In this document: piece after piece, positions 14,827 to 15,577 of the stretch | Layout of the letters: each line of letters opens with the position of its first letter | Position numbering within the stretch: position 1 is the first letter of the stretch | Source of the DNA: a virus | IMG/VR virus record: IMGVR_UViG_3300022934_002447 | Coordinates: 1-25,899 of that record | Length of the DNA stretch: 25,899 nt | Direction: 5' to 3' (one strand) | Position numbers and translations under genes: made by a program | Notes under the pieces: model-generated | The model's input: the letters and a program-made list of their open reading frames with translations, nothing else | The model's database searches: none | Told to the model about the DNA's origin: nothing

Positions 14827-14834
14827 TATAAATA
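14827..14834 (+). promoter_or_regulatory. T4-type late promoter TATAAATA before hsp20
   Basis: An exact gp55-type late box in the only gene-free stretch of this region (14781-14895). It predicts a transcript start near 14840 and a 5' leader of about 55 nt. A sigma70-like pair, TTTACT (14802) and TATATA (14825) with a 17-bp spacer, overlaps it, so the gene may also be read early. Confidence 0.78.
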
Positions 14835-14836
14835 AT

Positions 14837-14895
14837 AATGTAATGCGGAATGGTCCGGTTACATTTTCATTCTTGCTTGTAAAAAGGAGAAAACT
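14837..14895 (+). promoter_or_regulatory. Candidate ROSE-like RNA thermometer in the hsp20 leader
   Basis: Two hairpins fill the leader. Hairpin 1 (14837-14865) has arms AATGTAA/TTACATT and an inner CGGA/TCCG stem with an ATGG loop. Hairpin 2 (14870-14891) pairs UUCUUGCUU with the Shine-Dalgarno region AAGGAGAA across a 5-nt loop, with one bulged G and one U-G pair. The UUGCU segment facing AGGA is the hallmark of ROSE thermometers, which control small heat-shock genes in proteobacteria. Folding was done by eye; the outer part of hairpin 1 depends on the exact transcript start. Confidence 0.45.
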
Positions 14896-15366
14896 ATGAC
14901 AGGCGTACAATCACTATTCCCACGTTCATCTTTTGTTGGATTTGACCATCTACTCAGTGAACTGGATTATGTAGCAAAACATTCATCAGATAACTATCCC
15001 CCACATAATATTCTAAAGACAGGTGATCATGATTACCTTATTGAATTGGCTGTGGCTGGATTTAGTAAGGACGAACTTAACATTGAAGTTAAGGATCGTA
15101 CACTTACTGTGACAGGTGAACATGTGAGTAAAGGTCGCGAGTACATTCACCGTGGTATTTCCACTAAGAAGTTCAAACGCACCTTTAGGCTGTCCGAACA
15201 CGTAAAAGTAAACGGAGCAGACTTAGTAGACGGAGTATTGTCAGTAGAACTGAAATATGAAGTCCCGGAAGAACTGCGTCCTCGTAAAATCGAAATCGGT
15301 CATTACGAGGAAATAACAAATGACACACATTCAAACAGTAAGCAATTACTTACAGAGTCCGATTGA
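14896..15366 (+). CDS. hsp20: Small heat-shock protein Hsp20 (alpha-crystallin family)
   Basis: 156 aa with a short N-terminal arm (FPRSSFVGFDHLLSEL), then a full alpha-crystallin domain: PPHNILKTGDHDYLIELAVAGFSKDEL, LTVTGEH, and FKRTFRLSEHVKVNGADLVDGVLSVEL. The tail runs through PRKIEIGHYEE, which contains an I-x-I motif (IEI) used for oligomer assembly. Such chaperones hold unfolding proteins; phage copies are near universal in marine T4-like phages and may help virion proteins fold or keep the host alive during infection. AGGAG at 14885-14889 is six bases before ATG and is possibly masked by the leader hairpin. A late promoter lies 62 bases upstream. The last 47 bases overlap the next gene. 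Confidence 0.95.
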   Translation: MTGVQSLFPRSSFVGFDHLLSELDYVAKHSSDNYPPHNILKTGDHDYLIELAVAGFSKDELNIEVKDRTLTVTGEHVSKGREYIHRGISTKKFKRTFRLSEHVKVNGADLVDGVLSVELKYEVPEELRPRKIEIGHYEEITNDTHSNSKQLLTESD

Positions 15367-15577
15367 GGGCTTATTCGACCTATTCAAATCATTCATGAAA
15401 ATGCGTGAGGAGAATGCAAAAATTCGTGCAACGATCAAAGAGCTGAACAAGCTATCAGACAGAGAGTTGAACGATATTGGAATCGCACGAGGCGATATCT
15501 ATTCAGTAGCACACGACGATCCTTCACTTCGTCGTTCTGCAGCAAACACAAACTCTAATCTAAAGGGGTGGGTGTAA
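15320..15577 (+). CDS. DUF1127-domain small protein
   Basis: 85 aa; ATG 15320 has GAGG nine bases upstream, inside the hsp20 gene. The C-terminal half, NKLSDRELNDIGIARGDIYSVA (in pieces, from about residue 43), is the DUF1127 signature 'L.dreL.DIGlsR.dI'. The N-terminal half (IEGLFDLFKSFMKMREENAKIR) is an amphipathic helix. DUF1127 proteins are small Arg-containing proteins frequent in alpha- and gammaproteobacteria; some bind RNA or take part in phosphate and stress regulation. In a phage this may modulate host RNA metabolism, but that is inference. It is coupled to hsp20 (47-base overlap) and to the next gene (TAATG), so it shares the late promoter and possibly the heat response. Confidence 0.8.
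   Translation: MTHIQTVSNYLQSPIEGLFDLFKSFMKMREENAKIRATIKELNKLSDRELNDIGIARGDIYSVAHDDPSLRRSAANTNSNLKGWV

Follow-up and report, generated by a model that had tools for sequence, protein, structure and literature searches.

A candidate ROSE-like RNA thermometer at the late hsp20 gene of a T4-like phage, and its two-hairpin counterparts in other phage hsp20 leaders

The closest described counterparts of the leader considered here precede ibpA in Pseudomonas, where two-hairpin ROSE-like thermometers have been experimentally proven (PMC3669281) and are probably the basis of the Rfam family ROSE_3 (RF02523). Like the phage leaders, they consist of two hairpins only, in a leader of about 60 nt before a small heat-shock gene, with a stable first hairpin and a second one in which U(U/C)GCU stands opposite the Shine-Dalgarno sequence (SD). 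The differences lie in the promoter, which is of the phage late type here and of the sigma-32 type in Pseudomonas, and in the presence in our locus of a candidate competitor on the coding strand and of a downstream coupling hairpin. The other ROSE families of alpha- and gammaproteobacteria, Rfam ROSE (RF00435) and ROSE_2 (RF01832), have the U(U/C)GCU/AGGA core in common with the phage element. Furthermore, the RF00435 model opens with a hairpin of the form N6-G(bulge)-CC..GG that resembles the first phage hairpin, a similar bulged-G hairpin exists in ROSE_2, and in E. coli ibpA (by eye also in ibpB) such a hairpin lies 5′ of the thermosensor, as in the phage. The ROSE model and, by eye, the leaders of Rhodobacteraceae have an extra middle hairpin, whereas the phage element has two hairpins in all. 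As for cyanobacteria, the thermometer of the small heat-shock gene hsp17 of Synechocystis, which is mentioned in PMC3669281, is a single SD-masking hairpin, in contrast to the ROSE type of proteobacteria present in cyanophages; both mask the SD of a small heat-shock gene.

In phages, one survey counts three RNA thermometers, those of lambda cIII, of SPbeta blyA (a fourU element) and of a sigma-70 gene, the last belonging to the Caudoviricetes member ctoMw15 (PMC11182007). They are instances of temperature-controlled translation in phages, a control that in our leader is predicted. These are single cases at other genes, none of them reported as a ROSE element at a small heat-shock gene, while the element described here is common, at one and the same gene, to hundreds of phages. 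In the open-access literature searched, no earlier report of ROSE elements in phages was found. As for the gene itself, T4-like cyanophages have hsp20 in their core genome, and a role in capsid maturation has been guessed (PMC3037559).

The window, that is, the whole stretch of 25,899 nucleotides of the IMG/VR record analysed here, is part of the genome of a T4-like phage of marine-type bacteria and encodes a family B DNA polymerase and UvsX. On its plus strand, as are all features below, hsp20 (14896-15366) encodes a small heat-shock protein of 156 aa (Pfam PF00011, E 4.8e-18), and its leader (14840-14898) is formed by two hairpins. In hairpin I (14840-14862), the outer stem GUAAU/GUUAC pairs 14840-14844 with 14858-14862, and the inner stem CGGA/UCCG pairs 14846-14849 with 14854-14857, leaving G14845 bulged. 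In hairpin II (14870-14891), the putative thermosensor, the anti-SD strand UUCUUGCUU (14870-14878) is paired to AAGGAGAA (14884-14891) around a GUAAA loop (14879-14883), closing in the SD of hsp20, AGGAG (14885-14889). The pairs U14870-A14891, U14871-A14890, C14872-G14889, U14873-A14888 and U14874-G14887 are followed, past the bulged G14875 that marks the ROSE core, by C14876-G14886, U14877-A14885 and U14878-A14884. A preliminary description of this locus, made by eye, had proposed two such hairpins, and both the coordinates and the pairs that it gave, including the single bulged G and the single U-G pair of hairpin II, proved exact.

Relatives of the window Hsp20 protein, 80 from IMG/VR first and then four further families, allowed the structure to be examined for conservation, and the leaders of the clade to which the window belongs were aligned (65 leaders, 69 columns). 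With no structure supplied, RNAalifold returned precisely the two proposed hairpins, with 16 pairs, seven of which have changed on both sides. The covariation score was 0.330, as against 0.130 in shuffled alignments (0/500) and at most 0.079 when the partners were slid; the share of paired cells and the number of double changes likewise exceeded 500/500 shuffles and every slid control. Thus, the expectation that related leaders would conserve the pairing through compensatory changes was strongly borne out, and the two-hairpin structure seen in the window is beyond chance. Hairpin I shows compensatory changes in six of its eight pairs, which interchange GC, CG, AU and UA in many combinations with 93.5% of cells paired, while its bulged G is constant. 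In hairpin II, the outermost pair alternates between A-U and U-A (33 and 17 cells, with 15 unpaired), and the core offers no variation because it is too conserved, the UCUUGCUUG strand being invariant in the clade amid variable flanking sequence. Among 60 diverse phage leaders, whose alignment had been fitted to the model and is to that extent biased towards compensation, 194 cells were changed on both sides as against 50.6 after shuffling, with 12 of 16 pairs compensated.

The hairpins appear to be placed with reference to the transcript. At T4 late promoters, transcription starts six bases past the last A of TATAAATA, and this spacing rule sets the predicted start of the hsp20 mRNA at G14840, the first base of hairpin I, from the copy of the element at 14827-14834. 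The late promoter that had been noted before hsp20 is in place, and in the window clade TATAAATA with at most one mismatch precedes 84 of 93 leaders, as befits a T4-type late gene. In 77 of those 84, it sits 8-11 nt 5′ of the bulged G of hairpin I, a placement found in 16% of shuffled sequence. Across these 77 leaders, the pairing of hairpin I reaches 96-100% from the predicted +1 on, that position itself being paired in 96% and a G in 72; it falls to 58% at position -1 and does not exceed that value from -1 to -6, and the pairing boundary tracks the promoter more closely than it tracks the distance from the bulge. As such a boundary would otherwise be hard to explain, hairpin I seems to act in the RNA and to open the mRNA, and it is predicted to form the 5′ end of the late transcript. 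A transcript start 3′ of 14870, which the preliminary description had named as evidence that would tell against a thermometer, is contradicted by the start predicted from this promoter placement in the 77 relatives. In the Pelagibacter phage HTVC115P, a TTGACA/TATAAT-like promoter can be recognised by eye at the equivalent place.

Assignment of the element to ROSE was approached through the Rfam models and through bacterial leaders. The search suggested in the preliminary description gave a divided answer: the window had no ROSE-type Rfam match at gathering or at permissive thresholds, while ROSE_3, a model trained independently of this work, ranked three other phage leaders first in their own genomes, those of Melnitz-3 (E 1.6e-6), C48C1 (1.3e-4) and the window-clade phage G001 (0.0023), all three under its cut-off. 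These ROSE_3 rankings, though sub-threshold, link the phage leaders with the Pseudomonas type. The null result for the window is weak evidence, because RF00435 misses most of the bacterial ROSE loci tried: of 14 hsp20 loci from bacteria, mainly alphaproteobacteria, it matched one, although the ROSE motif is present in nearly all of them. As a separate matter, this Rfam family looks under-covered. The best phage score for ROSE, ROSE_2 and ROSE_3 was 34.1 bits, below the curated cut-off of 43, and for this reason we call the element ROSE-like and place it outside the curated families. It has a U(U/C)GCU strand with a bulged G on the SD in the 3′-proximal hairpin, two hairpins, where two to four are allowed, with the SD in the last, a small heat-shock gene downstream, and compensatory changes that keep the structure. 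The reading of UUGCU opposite AGGA as a ROSE element had thus named the right class, and both the bulged G and the upstream bulged-G hairpin agree with Rfam ROSE.

Among the nearest bacterial Hsp20 genes found, mostly from Rhodobacteraceae, a relaxed ROSE motif occurs in 79 of 80 leaders. A covariance model built from the phage leaders gave no match at E 0.1 on five whole bacterial genomes and is therefore largely phage-specific; on the bacterial hsp20 loci alone, it matched eight of 80, with a best E of 2e-4. The phage element resembles an abridged bacterial ROSE arrangement, comparable to that of Pseudomonas. By eye, three hairpins can be drawn in those Rhodobacteraceae leaders whose proteins are nearest to the window Hsp20; every one of the three has a bulged G, apparently after a pyrimidine (for instance in L586, L544 and L538), and this repeated motif might be a site for a protein or for tertiary contacts.

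In the phage, a protein could be the agent of control. E. coli IbpA binds ROSE-type ibpA leaders via Arg93 (PMC10474464), and in a similar way the phage Hsp20 might bind its own leader and repress it until titrated by misfolded protein, the signal then being protein damage during infection and temperature a secondary one. The bulged-G hairpin, repeated in I and II, could serve as recognition site, and most phage Hsp20 proteins outside the window clade have an arginine at IbpA position 93. Within the clade, the residue is a lysine in 96 of 96 proteins, and since R93K abolishes the activity of E. coli IbpA (PMC10474464), self-repression is weakened there, though it may operate in other phages; overall, we rate it as quite improbable.

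Judged by sequence, phage hsp20 genes have a ROSE-like leader as a rule. Of 334 distinct hsp20 leaders of phages, 316 have the U(U/C)GCU..AGGA motif and 18 lack its strict form, and a bulged-G hairpin I could be fitted to 316 of 328; among starts of other genes sharing this SD, the motif was present in four of 212, a background that is perhaps slightly low because starts with CTTGCTTG were left out. The preliminary description, in which the thermometer appeared as a single case, had underestimated this spread. The covariance model of phage leaders, R2, was applied to 17 phage records (about 3 Mb) and matched the hsp20 leader at E <1e-4 in 15 of them; every match at that level is an hsp20 leader, and the single stray match has E 0.9. 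The positive records comprise the cyanophages P-SSM2, S-CRM01, S-ShM2, S-RIM8, ACG-2014g and S-CAM3, the methylophage Melnitz-3, the Pelagibacter phage HTVC115P, the rhizobial jumbo phages Phosso and Atu_ph07, as well as C48C1, AG-345-P14 and three IMG/VR contigs, of which S-ShM2, S-RIM8, ACG-2014g, S-CAM3 and Phosso contributed nothing to the training set. The two records missed, HTVC103P and S-B68, have variants recognisable by eye. Moreover, a DNA pattern describing the core in the window clade occurs at 120 sites, 91 of them before hsp20 and two at hsp20 genes truncated by the end of the DNA; nearly all the remaining sites lie inside other sequence without a suitable start.

Some records deserve a comment of their own. 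In Campylobacter phage A11a (L091, MG065691), an unverified record, both hsp20 leaders are those of the ibpA and ibpB genes of E. coli and represent contamination, and this match was set aside; it accounts for two rows among the leaders surveyed and for no sequence in model R2. In S-CAM3 (L600 565-640; NC_031906), the annotated hsp20 start at 159099 is probably 25 codons too far 3′, the ROSE-like leader indicating the ATG at 159024. P-SSM2 (L088 785-982) has a full manA RNA (Rfam RF01745, E 4e-49) before purL, shortly 5′ of hsp20.

How the leader would open was considered in nearest-neighbour folding models, whose energies do not include the non-canonical pairs of ROSE. Taken alone, the segment of hairpin II adopts the drawn hairpin as its stable fold at all temperatures tried, its free energy amounting to -9.3 (5 °C), -3.5 (37 °C) and -1.1 kcal/mol (50 °C). 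The leader without coding sequence behaves in the model like E. coli ibpA, closed and then gradually opening, and removal of the bulged G locks hairpin II; in Pseudomonas, the same removal locks the hairpin by experiment (PMC3669281). A gradual predicted melting, together with the position of hairpin I at the predicted 5′ end, would also suit a static structure, with hairpin I lending stability to the late mRNA and hairpin II doing no more than dampen hsp20 translation, and with no useful temperature response. The weakening bulged G and U-G pair are nevertheless kept across diverse phages where stronger pairing would be easy, and at bacterial small heat-shock genes this core has been proven to act as a thermometer (PMC3669281), which makes a purely static role unlikely in our view.

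The picture changes when coding sequence is included. The minimum-free-energy fold then keeps hairpin I, as foreseen, and replaces hairpin II, in this respect departing from the preliminary description, by a helix between GCUUGU (14875-14880) and codons 2-3 of hsp20, ACAGGC (14899-14904). With 30 nt of coding sequence, hairpin II of the window clade is closed in 31% of the model ensemble at 5 °C and in 8% at 37 °C, a minority form because GCUUG pairs with codons 2-3, while E. coli ibpA remains closed in the same model. The competing helix could be a switch with a lower threshold or a flaw of the energy model. In the former case, the thermometer would be refined into a bistable switch: its anti-SD would be paired to the SD in the closed state and to codons 2-3 in the other, which leaves the SD free, and switching would shift down to cool-water temperatures. 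Mean SD exposure in the model would agree, since with the native ACA GGC it rises from 0.35 (5 °C) to 0.64 (37 °C), but with the synonymous ACT GGT only from 0.11 to 0.19, and so would the codons themselves, which show zero synonymous changes in 93 and 91 sequences. Yet the cyanophage and methylophage clades freeze codons 2-3 equally, without CAGG and with little or no excess complementarity, so that the freeze is unspecific evidence and was rejected as proof of a switch; besides, the competing fold puts the SD and the AUG in one loop and might also hinder ribosomes. We hold this refinement to be rather doubtful. Elsewhere in hsp20, codon 107 (15214-15216; GGA in 94/94) and codons 125-126 (15268-15273; GAA GAA) are likewise free of synonymous variation in the clade.

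A further hairpin lies near the end of hsp20 (15279-15311; -14.8 kcal/mol, z -3.6), where UCCUCGUAA (15279-15287) pairs with UUACGAGGA (15303-15311) and hides GAGGA, the SD of the next gene. The latter (15320-15577) starts within hsp20 in another frame and encodes a DUF1127 protein of 85 aa (Pfam PF06568, E 1.3e-10); the overlapping frame exists in 90 of 90 relatives. Even inside coding sequence, the hairpin is kept in 93 of 93 clade members, in 90 by the pattern CCUCGU..(A/G)CGAGG, in two by the compensatory CCUCGC/GCGAGG and in one via G-U pairs, and codons 128-129 of hsp20 show no synonymous change in the clade. The conserved hairpin and the SD region of the DUF1127 gene together span 15279-15325 of the window. 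This element probably serves translational coupling, the DUF1127 gene being translated only when hsp20 is, and a heat gate at hsp20 would therefore control two proteins. DUF1127 genes are reportedly mentioned in work on the RpoH stress regulon of Rhodobacter.

Altogether, we consider it probable, on the strength of folding models and comparison, that a short two-hairpin ROSE-like RNA thermometer gates translation of the late hsp20 gene and, by way of the conserved hairpin inside hsp20, that of the overlapping DUF1127 gene. Transcription from the late promoter would begin at the foot of hairpin I, which, as a stable 5′-terminal hairpin, probably protects the transcript and aids the folding of hairpin II. 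The latter would close the SD with its bulged-G U(U/C)GCU strand until warming, or another loosening condition, opens it at some threshold and lets ribosomes initiate on hsp20; their passage would in turn open the hairpin near the 3′ end of the gene and allow DUF1127 to be made too. A wider proposal, in which a ROSE-type thermometer is standard for hsp20 across tailed phages of diverse hosts, including cyanobacteria, and the window clade, by means of a competing strand from the coding region, has made of it a two-state switch tuned to the temperature of the ambient water and coupled to DUF1127, is put forward as tentative and, taken as a whole, improbable.

Should the thermometer reading be true, phages would ration their Hsp20 chaperone by temperature or stress through a conserved heat gate, to their presumable benefit, and the very short list of RNA thermometers known from phages would gain a large conserved class. 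The output of infection would depend, via translation, on the temperature of the water, and a thermometer type of proteobacteria would be working in the viruses of cyanobacteria.
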